Shown here: in pieces, positions 4,271 through 33,573 of the stretch
How the letters are laid out: each line of letters begins with the position of its first letter
How positions within the stretch are numbered: the stretch's first letter is position 1
Source: a virus
IMG/VR virus record: IMGVR_UViG_3300037847_002069
Span: 1 to 33,573 of that record
Direction: 5' to 3' (one strand)
DNA length: 33,573 bases
Notes under the pieces: model-generated
The model's database searches: none
What the model was told of the DNA's origin: nothing
The model's input: the letters and a program-made list of their open reading frames with translations, nothing else
Program-made: the position numbers and the translations under genes

Positions 4271-5272
4271 ATGAAAAATTTTGGAAAACTATCACCCAAC
4301 ACGGAGCTATCCGCTTCACTGGTACATAATTTATTTTACCGACCACACGAAGTATTGAATAAACTACGTGCGGCAAGGAACGGGGAGATAGAAGAAGTCA
4401 AACACGATATTAAATTAGAAGAACGTATGAATATGGGTAACCAACTTGAGGAGATTATTACCCAATTAGTACAAGAAAGATTACAGCTTAATGTAAAGTA
4501 TCCAGTCGATGAAGTAATGTCGATTGAGATTGGTACTTCCAATGATAACAAACCTTTGGATATCTTTGCCTCACTGGATGCAATTAGTTATGTCAAGAAA
4601 CCTCATGAAGTTAAGAGCAAAGACCGACAAGTGTACACCCCTTACAAACAACCCATTAATTTATTAGGTCCAGTTCCGATTGAGATAAAGAGTATGCAAG
4701 GTCGTCCTTATGAAACTCACGAACAGTTTGTCAAAGAACATGGCCGTGGCTATTTACAATGTCTGACTCAAATGATTATTGCTGATGCCAAGTATGGGAT
4801 TGTAGGTATCTTATTTAATGGTAATGACTTACGTGTGTATGTAGTTACTGAAGACCCAACCTTGCGCCAAGAAATATTAGGTAAGGCCTTGGTTCTCTAT
4901 GATCATTTAGAGAACGACACATGTTATCCTCCTGTTGATATTGATACCGCAGCAGCGCTGTACCCCAAGGTAGAAAAAGAAACAGTAGATGTGAGTGCAG
5001 ATTATCTAACTACCATTAATGATTTAGAAACCTTATTACAAAAAAGAAATGACATAGAAAATGCAATCGCTGATCACCAGATGAAACTAATTGAAGCAGT
5101 CGGTGAAGCAGAGATTGGTATATTGGAAACTCAAACCGGAGGTCGTATTGAACTACACCGTCCGATCAGGCACTATAAAGCTCAACCTCCAAAGTATAGT
5201 GAGGCAAAAGAAGCAAGAACTGTGCGTGCTAAGACAGTCAGTATCAAGAGAATATCTGAAGACTGGTCATGA
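4271..5272 (+). CDS. YqaJ-like PD-(D/E)XK recombination exonuclease, 333 aa
   Basis: The nuclease core is visible: G56-x3-E60 in helix 1 (NMGNQLEE), metal-binding Asp around 97-103 (LDIFASLDA), the E138-I-K140 motif (PIEIKSM), and the YLQCLTQMIIADA helix with the Gln pair (Q163, Q167) typical of YqaJ/lambda-exonuclease-like enzymes. Residues ~245-290 form a coiled coil, followed by a basic tail. Such enzymes resect double-stranded DNA ends in phage recombination, often with an SSB or annealase, here possibly the 241-aa SSB-like gene. It starts behind TAGGAGAATAAC ten bases after the helicase stop and overlaps the next gene by 4 nt. Family assignment is confident; the substrate is inferred. 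Confidence 0.82.
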   Translation: MKNFGKLSPNTELSASLVHNLFYRPHEVLNKLRAARNGEIEEVKHDIKLEERMNMGNQLEEIITQLVQERLQLNVKYPVDEVMSIEIGTSNDNKPLDIFASLDAISYVKKPHEVKSKDRQVYTPYKQPINLLGPVPIEIKSMQGRPYETHEQFVKEHGRGYLQCLTQMIIADAKYGIVGILFNGNDLRVYVVTEDPTLRQEILGKALVLYDHLENDTCYPPVDIDTAAALYPKVEKETVDVSADYLTTINDLETLLQKRNDIENAIADHQMKLIEAVGEAEIGILETQTGGRIELHRPIRHYKAQPPKYSEAKEARTVRAKTVSIKRISEDWS

Positions 5273-5925
5273 GTCCAAGAAGAAACATCCTTGCTGAGTT
5301 CACAGATGAGTTATTACTCAACTGGAATCCTGATTATCAGGAAAAAAAATATATTGCCCTTCGAGATACAGTTGTACCTCAGCTTATGGTTGCATTTAGT
5401 CGCAAAGGACACCACTCTTTCGTGTATGATTATCAAATTAAAAAAAGTAAAAACACTCTTTCCAATCATCGCACTAAAGTTTTTGGTAAATATCCTACCA
5501 TGTCGATTGAAGAAGCTAGGGAAAAGGTCATTTACTTTAACACACTAGCTACAACTAAAACCTTAGATGAGATACTTGAAGTTAAGATGATAGATACAGT
5601 CGTGTATTTTATTGAAAGTGCTGAAGGGTATATTAAGATTGGTAAAAGTTCTAACTGGTGGGCAAGAGCCAAAGAGCTTACAGCATCCAGTCAGGGGCAT
5701 CGGTTCATTGGGTTTCGTATTGAAGATGATGTATTCAATGAAACATCCTTGCATATCTTGTTTCGTAAGTTTCGTAAACCTAACTCAGAATACTTTGATG
5801 ATACTCTCAACTACATCAAAGCCCTGATAGTAAAAGCTGTTGTGTACCATGAGCCAAAGGCTAAGATAAAACAAACATTAGAATGGTATGAAGAACAAAT
5901 TTATGAAAAGGATAAACAACCCTAA
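5269..5925 (+). CDS. Arm-type integrase DNA-binding domain fused to GIY-YIG (T5orf172/MUG113-like) nuclease, 218 aa
   Basis: Residues ~27-90 match the N-terminal domain of tyrosine integrases (DUF4102 type): LRDTVVPQLMVAFSRKG, then a short strand, then VFGKYPTMSIEEAREKV, corresponding to the G-x-YP-x-(L/I)SL-x-EAR signature. No core-binding or tyrosine recombinase catalytic domain follows. Instead residues ~111-176 read VVYFIESAEGYIKIGKS with R133, E158 and a terminal EYFD, matching the T5orf172/MUG113 branch of GIY-YIG nucleases (YFI for GIY, IKIG for YIG, catalytic Arg and Glu). The result should be a site-specific DNA nuclease or nickase. It is the last rightward gene and overlaps the leftward operon end by 4 nt. 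Function in resolution, homing or host DNA attack is open. Confidence 0.75.
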   Translation: MSPRRNILAEFTDELLLNWNPDYQEKKYIALRDTVVPQLMVAFSRKGHHSFVYDYQIKKSKNTLSNHRTKVFGKYPTMSIEEAREKVIYFNTLATTKTLDEILEVKMIDTVVYFIESAEGYIKIGKSSNWWARAKELTASSQGHRFIGFRIEDDVFNETSLHILFRKFRKPNSEYFDDTLNYIKALIVKAVVYHEPKAKIKQTLEWYEEQIYEKDKQP

Positions 5926-6191
5926 GACTTCTTATGACGATTAGCAAAGTTACGAGCAGCTTCTACACTACCAAAACCCCATGCTTTTAGAGCCAGTGCC
6001 TTTCGAGTAGGTCTTCCCTTCTCGTCCTTCATAGGCCCCTTCATCCCGGCAAAGCGGGCAGCAAAACTTACCCGTCTTGGGTTAGTTCCTGACTTGACCG
6101 GTGCTTTCAAGTTTGCACCTTCAGTTCGTTTAAAGAAGGCTCTACCTTTCGCAGTTAAACCTCCCTTTGGATTCTTGTGTTCTTTACGCAT
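5922..6191 (-). CDS. Basic DUF6321-like phage protein, 89 aa
   Basis: A strongly basic small protein with the pattern GLTAKGRAFF, then a linker, then RRVSFAARFAGMKGPMKD and PTRKALALKAWGFG. This layout is common in marine phages, where it is annotated as DUF6321 and has no assigned role; it may contact nucleic acid. It is the last gene of the leftward late unit, and its stop overlaps the stop of the convergent early unit. I see no terminator hairpin between the two, so transcripts may run into each other. Confidence 0.75.
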   Translation of the reverse strand: MRKEHKNPKGGLTAKGRAFFKRTEGANLKAPVKSGTNPRRVSFAARFAGMKGPMKDEKGRPTRKALALKAWGFGSVEAARNFANRHKKS

Positions 6192-28295: not shown

Positions 28296-28889
28296 CTAAT
28301 AAATTTTGCCGTATAACATGTAGTCTGTTTTATCATGACCAAATTGTTTCATACAGCCTTCTAGTTTGAATTGTAATACAGAAGCCCAGTTATTCGCAAC
28401 CTTATTCTCAGCACGTACTGTAACCTGCATTCGGTGAGCTGCCAGAAACTTTGCTCCTTGATCAATCACAAATTTCGCAGTGCGAGTGGCAGCGACCGGA
28501 TGTTTGTCAAATAATTTACTGCCCATACACCATGCCTCAAACACACCGGGTACCAGTTGCGCAAAGCCAAAACAGGCTGCATGTTGATGTTCATAGAACA
28601 CTGTGACTGCCGGACCCAGTTGTTGGTAGCCTTCTATGTACGCAATGGTTTCGTCAAATGATCCAAAATAAGAATTATCCAAAGCACGATAATCCAAATG
28701 ATAAGCATGATCAGTGTGGTAAGAGCGATAAATAATTCTTTCATTACGGTTTAAACTGTTATAATATGCAATTAACCCCTCTTGGTTGTTTATAGTTAAG
28801 GGTTCGGAATGTTTATGTTGGCTTTCTTGCCTACCCCCTTTGTTAACCGAACCCTTTTTTTTTAGCATATCTTCTAAACTAGAATACAT
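28296..28889 (-). CDS. T7 gp13/DUF2833-like GNAT-fold protein, 197 aa
   Basis: The C-terminal ~120 residues have a GNAT-like layout (VTVFYEHQHAACFGFAQLVP, FEAWCMGSKLFDKHPVAATR, TVRAENKVANNWASVLQFKL, EGCMKQFGHDKTDYMLYGKI), matching the T7 gp13/DUF2833 family of virion-assembly proteins. The frame runs to 28916, but ATG 28889 is preferred: it overlaps the methyltransferase stop by one base and gives MYSSLEDML. A run of nine A (minus strand) encodes KKK near the start and could cause slippage. The first four codons are the same as those of the methyltransferase upstream because of a 15-bp repeat. Confidence 0.75.
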   Translation of the reverse strand: MYSSLEDMLKKKGSVNKGGRQESQHKHSEPLTINNQEGLIAYYNSLNRNERIIYRSYHTDHAYHLDYRALDNSYFGSFDETIAYIEGYQQLGPAVTVFYEHQHAACFGFAQLVPGVFEAWCMGSKLFDKHPVAATRTAKFVIDQGAKFLAAHRMQVTVRAENKVANNWASVLQFKLEGCMKQFGHDKTDYMLYGKIY

Positions 28890-28890
28890 T
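28876..28890. repeat. 15-bp direct repeat, copy 1 (downstream of methyltransferase)
   Basis: AAACTAGAATACATT, identical to 29436-29450 and exactly 560 bp from it. On the minus strand it supplies the start codon and first codons (MYSS) of the gp13-like gene. Confidence 0.9.
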
Positions 28891-29449
28891 AAACTTCGTT
28901 CCCCCATACGTCCCAACCTTCGGTTTTTTCTCTGGCAAAGAGTTCTATTCTTGGTAAATCTCCAAATAATAAATCAATTCGTTTTCTAACCTCGTGTGGT
29001 TTTTTGCTGTGTTTAGTACGCTGTGCAATTACCAGTGATTCTATGTTGTTAAATTTTTTATATTTAGACATTGTACCTTTTACACCTAACAAACAAATCT
29101 CACTACTTTTCATGGTCCACGGAGCTACATTTTTACAGTAGTTGCCTTTTGATGTGGTTTTAATCCAATTAAACGCTATGGTTTTATACTTGAAACCCCA
29201 TGATTTAAATATTTGTAATGCTTCATCTAAGTGCGAATCTGTTACCCACATAAAACATACAGCATCTTTTTGTGTAATTTTTTTTATTGGTAGTTCTTTA
29301 AGTTCTTGTAACTTCATAGTATTGTAATGATTACTTAAAGGCTTTATTTCGCTACCAGTCGTGTTATTAACTGCTGACTTGCTACCATAATTCCAAGGCG
29401 GATCAGCATAAATAATGTTGTATTTTTTATTAGGAAAACTAGAATACAT
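28889..29449 (-). CDS. MT-A70 family N6-adenine DNA methyltransferase, 186 aa
   Basis: The catalytic DPPW motif (residues 16-19, IIYADPPWNYGS), the following SNHYNTM, and FMWVTDSHLDEALQIFKSWG, AFNWIKTT and a C-terminal EVRKRIDLLFGDLPRIELFA are those of MT-A70-type adenine methyltransferases. It would transfer a methyl group from S-adenosylmethionine to adenine N6 in phage DNA, possibly to evade restriction; no partner nuclease is present. The gene lies between terminase and a gp13-like gene and is bounded by a 15-bp direct repeat, implying later insertion. Its start overlaps the terminase stop by 11 nt. Confidence 0.9.
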   Translation of the reverse strand: MYSSFPNKKYNIIYADPPWNYGSKSAVNNTTGSEIKPLSNHYNTMKLQELKELPIKKITQKDAVCFMWVTDSHLDEALQIFKSWGFKYKTIAFNWIKTTSKGNYCKNVAPWTMKSSEICLLGVKGTMSKYKKFNNIESLVIAQRTKHSKKPHEVRKRIDLLFGDLPRIELFAREKTEGWDVWGNEV

Positions 29450-32363: not shown

Positions 32364-32579
32364 AATGACAAGGATGACAAGTGACATACACCCTATATAT
32401 AGGGTGTGTACTGTCATGTCATTTCAATCCTCTTTGTGTCATTGTGTCATTGCTGTGTCATTTCAAAAGTTGAGTAAAAACAATAACTTCTAGAACACAA
32501 TGACAGGAGATGACACCACCTTTGTAAGGTGTCATTGTAAAGATTGCGAGCAATGACATAGGTTTGAACAGGTGTCATT
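32364..32579. repeat. Array of 12 ATGACA/TGTCAT motifs (operator cluster or origin)
   Basis: Exact ATGACA starts at 32365, 32374, 32500, 32510 and 32553; exact TGTCAT starts at 32412, 32417, 32437, 32445, 32456, 32530 and 32573; GTGACA is at 32381. Most extend to GTGTCATT or AATGACA. Orientation is mixed, with pairs such as ATGACACC/GGTGTCAT (32510-32535) forming inverted repeats. About 0.1 would be expected by chance in this length. It holds no gene and separates a terminator from early promoter 2. Confidence 0.85.
32388..32407. repeat. 20-bp perfect palindrome
   Basis: ACACCCTATATATAGGGTGT is a perfect inverted repeat centred at 32397.5, with three ATGACA-type sites to its left and TGTCAT copies to its right. 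A dimeric binding site or cruciform is possible. Confidence 0.9.
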
Positions 32580-32600
32580 TCAAATAACATAAAAAAGGGG

Positions 32601-33201: not shown

Positions 33202-33573
33202 ATTCAAGGAATACAAGACCAAGTATTCAATCTTGCCGGCTCGCATCATTGGGGATAAACGGTTCAAGATAGCGCACTACAATGTGATGTGTTGTTTTGG
33301 GGTGCATGCCGGTAAGTCCGGCCTGATCTACTGCACCCACGAAACGATAGAGGCCGAGTGTCCCCACGTCCAGAAGTCCACGATTAAAAAGGCAATCAAT
33401 GACTTGGTTACGTGGGGGTACGTGCATCGACTCGAACCCAAGTATATGAGGGGGCAGAAGTCTAGATATCTTACGAACCGGTACATGTTGGTGTACGAAC
33501 CCGACCAAGACATACCACCGTATGAGGAGCTTAAAAAGGTTTACAATACTGAAGTCGTGGCGAGTAGTAAAAT
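33194..33573 (+). CDS. Replication-initiator-like winged-helix protein (5' part of origin-spanning gene)
   Basis: Start ATG 33194, within the ACGATGAGTAA overlap with the 45-aa gene; the frame continues across the contig end to 449 for a total of 219 residues. The N-terminal ~100 residues contain the winged-helix: strand and helix (ILPARIIGDKRFKIAHYNVM), helix-turn-helix (GLIYCTHETIEAECPHVQKS, TIKKAINDLVTWGYVHRLE) and a basic wing (MRGQKSRYLTNRYMLVYE). This resembles initiator proteins of phages and plasmids that use host polymerase. It may recognise the repeat array at 32.4 kb, about 0.6-0.8 kb upstream; this is inference. Confidence 0.72.
   Translation, partial: MSKFKEYKTKYSILPARIIGDKRFKIAHYNVMCCFGVHAGKSGLIYCTHETIEAECPHVQKSTIKKAINDLVTWGYVHRLEPKYMRGQKSRYLTNRYMLVYEPDQDIPPYEELKKVYNTEVVASSK
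33405..33573. repeat. Terminal overlap, right copy
   Basis: Second copy of bases 1-169. Joining position 33404 to position 1 restores one uninterrupted reading frame (33194 through 449), so the molecule is best treated as circular or circularly permuted with about 33,404 unique bases. Confidence 0.9.

Follow-up and report, generated by a model that had tools for sequence, protein, structure and literature searches.

The window, by which we mean the whole analysed stretch of 33,573 nucleotides, contains a gene whose product is well supported as a fusion of an integrase arm domain (PF13356, formerly DUF4102) with a GIY-YIG domain of the T5orf172/MUG113 type, without the recombinase part (Table 1). 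The boundaries of this open reading frame proved to be exactly those first noted. Its ATG overlaps the stop codon of the upstream RecE-like gene (ATGA, positions 5269-5272), thus both genes may be translated together.

Table 1. Features at the fusion locus and at related loci. Positions refer to the window unless a contig is named.
Feature	Position	Strand	Remarks
RecE-like recombination exonuclease gene	4271..5272	+	phrog_434, E 2.7e-21
Arm/GIY-YIG fusion gene	5269..5925	+	218 aa; homologues on 27 other viral contigs
Arm-type DNA-binding domain	5296..5559	+	residues 10-97; PF13356 match at residues 30-87
GIY-YIG nuclease domain, T5orf172/MUG113 type (predicted)	5590..5874	+	residues 108-202
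Arg133 codon, predicted catalytic	5665..5667	+	invariant in 21 members; role inferred from the GIY-YIG family
Glu158 codon, predicted metal-binding catalytic Glu	5740..5742	+	invariant in 21 members; role inferred from the GIY-YIG family
DUF6321 gene, end of the convergent late module	5922..6191	-	4-base overlap with the 3' end of the fusion gene
PDDEXK_15-like small gene	L010 949-1287; L007 967-1377; L086 6602-6943		weak match

The two ends of the record (1-169 and 33405-33573) overlap by 169 bp at 99.4%, and the record is listed without end repeats; on the strength of this overlap the genome is most likely complete, with a size of about 33.4 kb. The terminase shares 63% identity with its counterpart in the Methylophilales (OM43) phage MEP301, a relative with T7-like structural genes. 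A search for the PF00589 tyrosine recombinase domain in 24 records, the window and 23 related ones, gave no match, while the control genomes were positive, and the phage is apparently lytic. Two other features of the window were recorded. An MT-A70 family methyltransferase gene (28889-29449) lies beside the large terminase gene, and the primase gene is divided between two frames, with 94 aa ending at 2725 and the remainder in the -1 frame, starting near 2684-2689. The run GATTTTCT is kept at this frame switch in the window and in the contigs L084, L083 and L007, and in L010 the primase is one open frame; the split at GATTTTCT is a candidate programmed -1 frameshift.

Homology of the N-terminal half to integrase arm domains is well supported, since profile search, reverse search and predicted fold agree. 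In the Pfam profile search this half matched PF13356 (Arm-DNA-bind_3) with an E value of 6.1e-6 and 26.7 bits, 0.3 bits under the cut-off of 27, and the 218-aa protein gave no match to PF00589. All ten homologues scanned matched PF13356 as well as both the T5orf172 and the MUG113 profiles, the best E values being 8.7e-8 for the arm and 1.6e-7 for the nuclease families; the homologue from L088 clears the PF13356 cut-off (27.4 vs 27). In the reverse test, a profile built solely from the N-terminal halves of the family was run on 398 Pseudomonadota genomes and matched the N-termini of open frames in 32 of them (E <= 1e-4; best 6.3e-9). These frames are mostly of typical integrase length, and each of the six matches checked carries both PF13356 and PF00589. 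The AF2 model of the fusion protein (mean pLDDT 80) was closest to solved integrase arm domains from HPI, HAI7 and a P4-like integrase, with Z scores of 10.0 (3jtz, model residues 10-97), 9.8 and 9.5, and the next row scored 4.2. As a supporting check and nothing more, since its profile used integrases retrieved by resemblance, we compared 10,500 shuffled sequences, which reached at best 8.9 bits against 37-53 for the real ones. Some residues invariant in the fusion family, H49 and H67 among them, are absent from the sampled integrases, which hints at a specificity of the reader's own.

The C-terminal half, searched separately, matched PF10544 (T5orf172; E 5.4e-5, 24.1 bits, cut-off 20) and MUG113 (PF13455; 22.7 bits, cut-off 22.3). 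Modelled alone, it reached a pLDDT of 87, and the top rows of its fold comparison were GIY-YIG proteins (Slx1, UPF0213, At-HIGLE, I-TevI and UvrC), but with Z scores of 3-4, near those of unrelated rows. A Foldseek search of the PDB with this model gave no match at E <= 0.001, the first GIY-YIG protein appearing at rank 16, and a sequence search of the PDB with the nuclease half as query returned nothing relevant. Viral T5orf172/MUG113 models in BFVD, on the other hand, were matched well by Foldseek. The profiles and the BFVD family models, rather than the weak fold matches, thus point to a GIY-YIG domain of the T5orf172/MUG113 type. PADLOC and NCBIfam searches added weak scattered matches, nothing more. 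Y113, K123-I124-G125, R133 and E158 are invariant in 21 of 21 members, and H162 is kept in 20 of the 21. The original prediction of an arm/GIY-YIG fusion lacking a recombinase is therefore borne out by profiles for both halves, and for the arm half also by reverse searches and predicted fold; the catalytic residues that it named, R133 and E158, showed no loss across the homologues compared. Structure prediction upheld the arm half clearly; for the nuclease half it ranked GIY-YIG proteins first, with scores near those of unrelated rows.

The same fusion was sought in other phages, and profile-guided searches placed it on 27 further IMG/VR contigs, one copy being cut by a contig end. This number covers the contigs found so far and should be read as at least 27 other marine phage contigs. 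Nine of them are MEP301-like relatives of the window, and the rest form an HTVC023P-like lineage, described as podoviruses (PMC9599517), in which the terminase shares 76% identity with the one of pelagiphage HTVC023P. Judged by sequence, the fusion forms a conserved family shared by two lineages of marine podoviruses, the relatives of OM43 phage MEP301 and those of pelagiphage HTVC023P. The likely hosts, SAR11 and OM43 bacteria, are inferred solely from these cultured relatives. Cultured phages gave no full-length fusion in tblastn and profile searches, nor did bacterial genomes in a pattern-guided scan. Three candidates were rejected: L001 is a chance match to one peptide pattern, the bacterial relatives of phrog_3423 match mostly in frames of integrase length, and those phrog_8130 relatives whose loci match the fusion profile do so with its nuclease half alone.

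The fusion gene is under purifying selection in the copies compared. All 21 are intact and free of stops, no decayed copy was seen, and dN/dS ranges from 0.00 to 0.57, mostly about 0.1, in both halves. The pairwise identities of the two halves correlate at 0.87, so that the halves diverge together, and this pattern is consistent with a single old fusion. The tree splits the fusions by phage lineage with one change (support 81/88) and does not demonstrate frequent transfer between the two lineages. At the nucleotide level, the nuclease halves of some pairs look more recently exchanged than the reader halves, an observation that we regard as no more than suggestive.

In MEP301-like phages the fusion is flanked by the RecE-like gene on one side and the late module on the other. 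Since the late proteins are mostly 75-96% identical to those of the window and RecE only 45-51%, this slot is a mosaic boundary, a location also described for phage nuclease genes (PMC10448857). Within the window lineage the gene is patchy, being missing from L007, L084, L085 and MEP301, and its orientation varies: it is co-directional with RecE in the window and opposite in the other MEP301-like carriers. Comparison of L007 with the carriers gave no alignable pair of empty and occupied sites, the flanks being too diverged. In the HTVC023P-like phages the fusion stands between a small gene and terS, adjacent to the latter or about 1 kb upstream, and it is present in all 12 contigs of this subgroup that cover the place. 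HTVC023P itself yielded no fusion by profile search and no recognisable nuclease at that place. A small gene weakly matching PDDEXK_15 (Table 1) was also seen, which adjoins the fusion or occupies the slot region where the fusion is absent.

The search for a binding site of the fusion gave none, and of the two repeat arrays considered neither tracks the gene. A conserved TAGGAA array with an inverted pair lies just upstream of terS (L109 4618-4720), also in HTVC023P, and the same place holds it in L106, L111, L114, L118, L119 and L121. All 11 contigs with the exact array carry the fusion, but in HTVC023P the array is present and no fusion was detected, and the MEP301-like carriers lack the array. 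The TAGGAA array is therefore probably a packaging feature, and it is possible that it represents the packaging site (cos or pac) of these pelagiphages. In the window itself, dense TGTCATTG/CAATGACA repeats occur on both strands at 32364-32580, upstream of a possible terS gene. Here the motif does not track the fusion because it is genome-specific: the CAATGACA cluster is limited to the window genome, the array at the comparable place has the core CAAGGACA in L005, and in L007, which has no fusion, the core is CAAAGACA. The core thus changes between close relatives as if it followed the drifting specificity of some binding protein.

Genes do appear to pass between the two lineages. The C5 DNA methyltransferases of L094 (5240-6214) and L114 (2652-3932), which come from the two phage lineages, are 90-93% identical over about 165 N-terminal residues, and their C-terminal parts have diverged. 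The near-identical part argues that exchange between the lineages is real, and the comparison suggests a recent event with an apparent swapping of the recognition part.

What could such a protein do? Integrase arm domains have a sheet and helix fold which reads short arm-type sites, and homing endonucleases spread by cut-triggered recombination that copies their own gene. Going by its two domain families, the fusion protein is probably a site-specific DNA cutter. Our leading reading, to which we assign a probability of roughly 0.5, is a free-standing, homing-type, site-specific T5orf172 endonuclease with the arm domain as its reader. In such a scheme, the N-terminal domain would bind a particular DNA site, presumably a conserved phage site, the C-terminal domain would cut near it, and the cut in a co-infecting phage devoid of the gene would trigger recombination, copying the gene and its flanking DNA across. 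DNA binding, cleavage, site preference and homing are all properties that we infer from the families. We place homing first because T5orf172 nucleases are largely homing endonucleases with interchangeable DNA-binding domains, often encoded beside terminase genes (PMC10448857). Among the three roles first proposed (homing, concatemer resolution, and attack on the attachment sites of integrases in competing elements), homing fits best because of the nuclease family, the location of the slots at mosaic boundaries, the patchy presence in the window lineage, the inverted copy and the sharing between two lineages. The fit is partial, for no empty and occupied pair is available, and presence in 12 of 12 HTVC023P-like contigs together with the lack of any decayed copy is unlike a sporadic selfish gene. 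The lack of an identified binding site and the weak fold support for the nuclease (Z 3-4) also count against it.

Intact and selected in all compared copies and fixed in one lineage, the fusion behaves as a useful gene would, and this is in line with an interference nuclease whose captured reader directs cutting of a competing satellite, prophage or integrative element at integrase arm sites. The Odn protein of phage ICP1 works on exactly this principle, its T5orf172 nuclease carrying a RepA domain (PMC8263062), and similar pairs have been proposed in coliphages (PMC10448857). The precedent makes this role a serious alternative, although we consider it unlikely for the fusion. Domains of the Odn type closely match a protein of the target itself, and for the fusion no bacterial integrase of such similarity was found: the donor search gave weak matches only in 397 Pelagibacterales genomes and a distant best match (E 6e-9) in 398 Pseudomonadota genomes, a sample that does not take in OM43 hosts as a group. 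Moreover, the reader is strongly conserved across the two lineages (mean pairwise identity 57%) and not diversified as in an arms race. A second, independent Odn-style immunity, in which the arm/GIY-YIG protein would cut the attachment regions of integrating rivals, for instance satellites or prophages, in SAR11 or OM43 hosts, is more doubtful still. The attack on rival attachment sites put forward in the original prediction gained no positive support, as no close integrase arm was found and the family invariants are absent from the sampled integrases.

A part in the DNA cycle of the phage itself, through concatemer resolution, packaging start or RecE-linked recombination at a site in its own genome, is in our view as unlikely as interference. 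It would account for the position next to RecE in the window, where the two genes are possibly co-translated, and for the place near terS and a repeat array in the HTVC023P-like phages, where the fusion is universal. However, the TAGGAA array stands upstream of terS also in HTVC023P, where searches gave no fusion; the fusion is missing from MEP301 and from close relatives of the window, and the array from MEP301-like carriers.

T5orf172 domains also occur in regulator-like proteins of phages and eukaryotic viruses, together with KilA-N or BRO domains, and BRO proteins are among the BFVD matches of the fusion. A DNA-binding regulator that keeps the GIY-YIG fold for structure or binding, with no nuclease activity, is nonetheless very unlikely given that none of the 21 members departs from the motif residues Tyr, Lys-Ile-Gly, Arg and Glu. 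Least probable is a restriction-like partner of the C5 DNA methyltransferase. The gene for this enzyme directly adjoins the fusion in L094, takes its slot in L085 and is located upstream in the majority of HTVC023P-like carriers, but has no match in most MEP301-like carriers, the window included, and occurs without the fusion in L085.

With the fusion, the set of DNA-binding modules known from T5orf172 nucleases gains an integrase arm-type reader, and the lineages in which it occurs are related to cultured phages of SAR11 and OM43 bacteria. Should the protein cut at defined sites, the arm domain would prove to be a DNA reader that can be transplanted into proteins other than recombinases, and homing or interference among ocean phages could be tested on this candidate. 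P4-like tyrosine integrases (PF13356 + PF00589; 3jtz, 3ju0, 3rmp) share with it a homologous N-terminal domain of the same fold (Z 9.5-10); in the fusion, the arm is followed by a nuclease domain in place of the core-binding and recombinase domains. IPA-HNH proteins, HNH homing endonucleases with AP2, likewise join a homing nuclease to a single compact reader, and the AP2 domain, like the integrase arm, reads DNA with a three-stranded sheet; however, their nuclease is HNH, the AP2 reader is on the C-terminal side, and the families differ from those of the fusion. The T5orf172 homing endonucleases of ICP1-like and T5-like phages have the same nuclease family, a modular reader and slots near terminase or replication genes, but their readers are CapR, DUF723 or DUF4397 zinc-finger domains and not an arm-type domain. 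The 2023 survey of T5orf172 readers mentions neither DUF4102 nor an arm domain, and the literature searched, which covered few subscription papers, held no pairing of T5orf172/MUG113 with DUF4102 or an arm domain. We therefore describe the fusion as a putative T5orf172 nuclease with a new reader, a pairing apparently unreported. The closest concept is ICP1 Odn, a T5orf172 nuclease with a satellite's RepA domain, along with its coliphage homologues Inny, Muut and Mt1B1_P17. All are small phage proteins, encoded by genes under 700 bp, that combine T5orf172 with a DNA-binding domain, and in the Odn group as in the fusion the reader is related to the DNA-binding domain of another mobile-element protein. 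The difference lies in the reader itself: that of Odn is a RepA_N domain closely matching the satellite initiator, whereas that of the fusion is an integrase arm for which no close donor was found.
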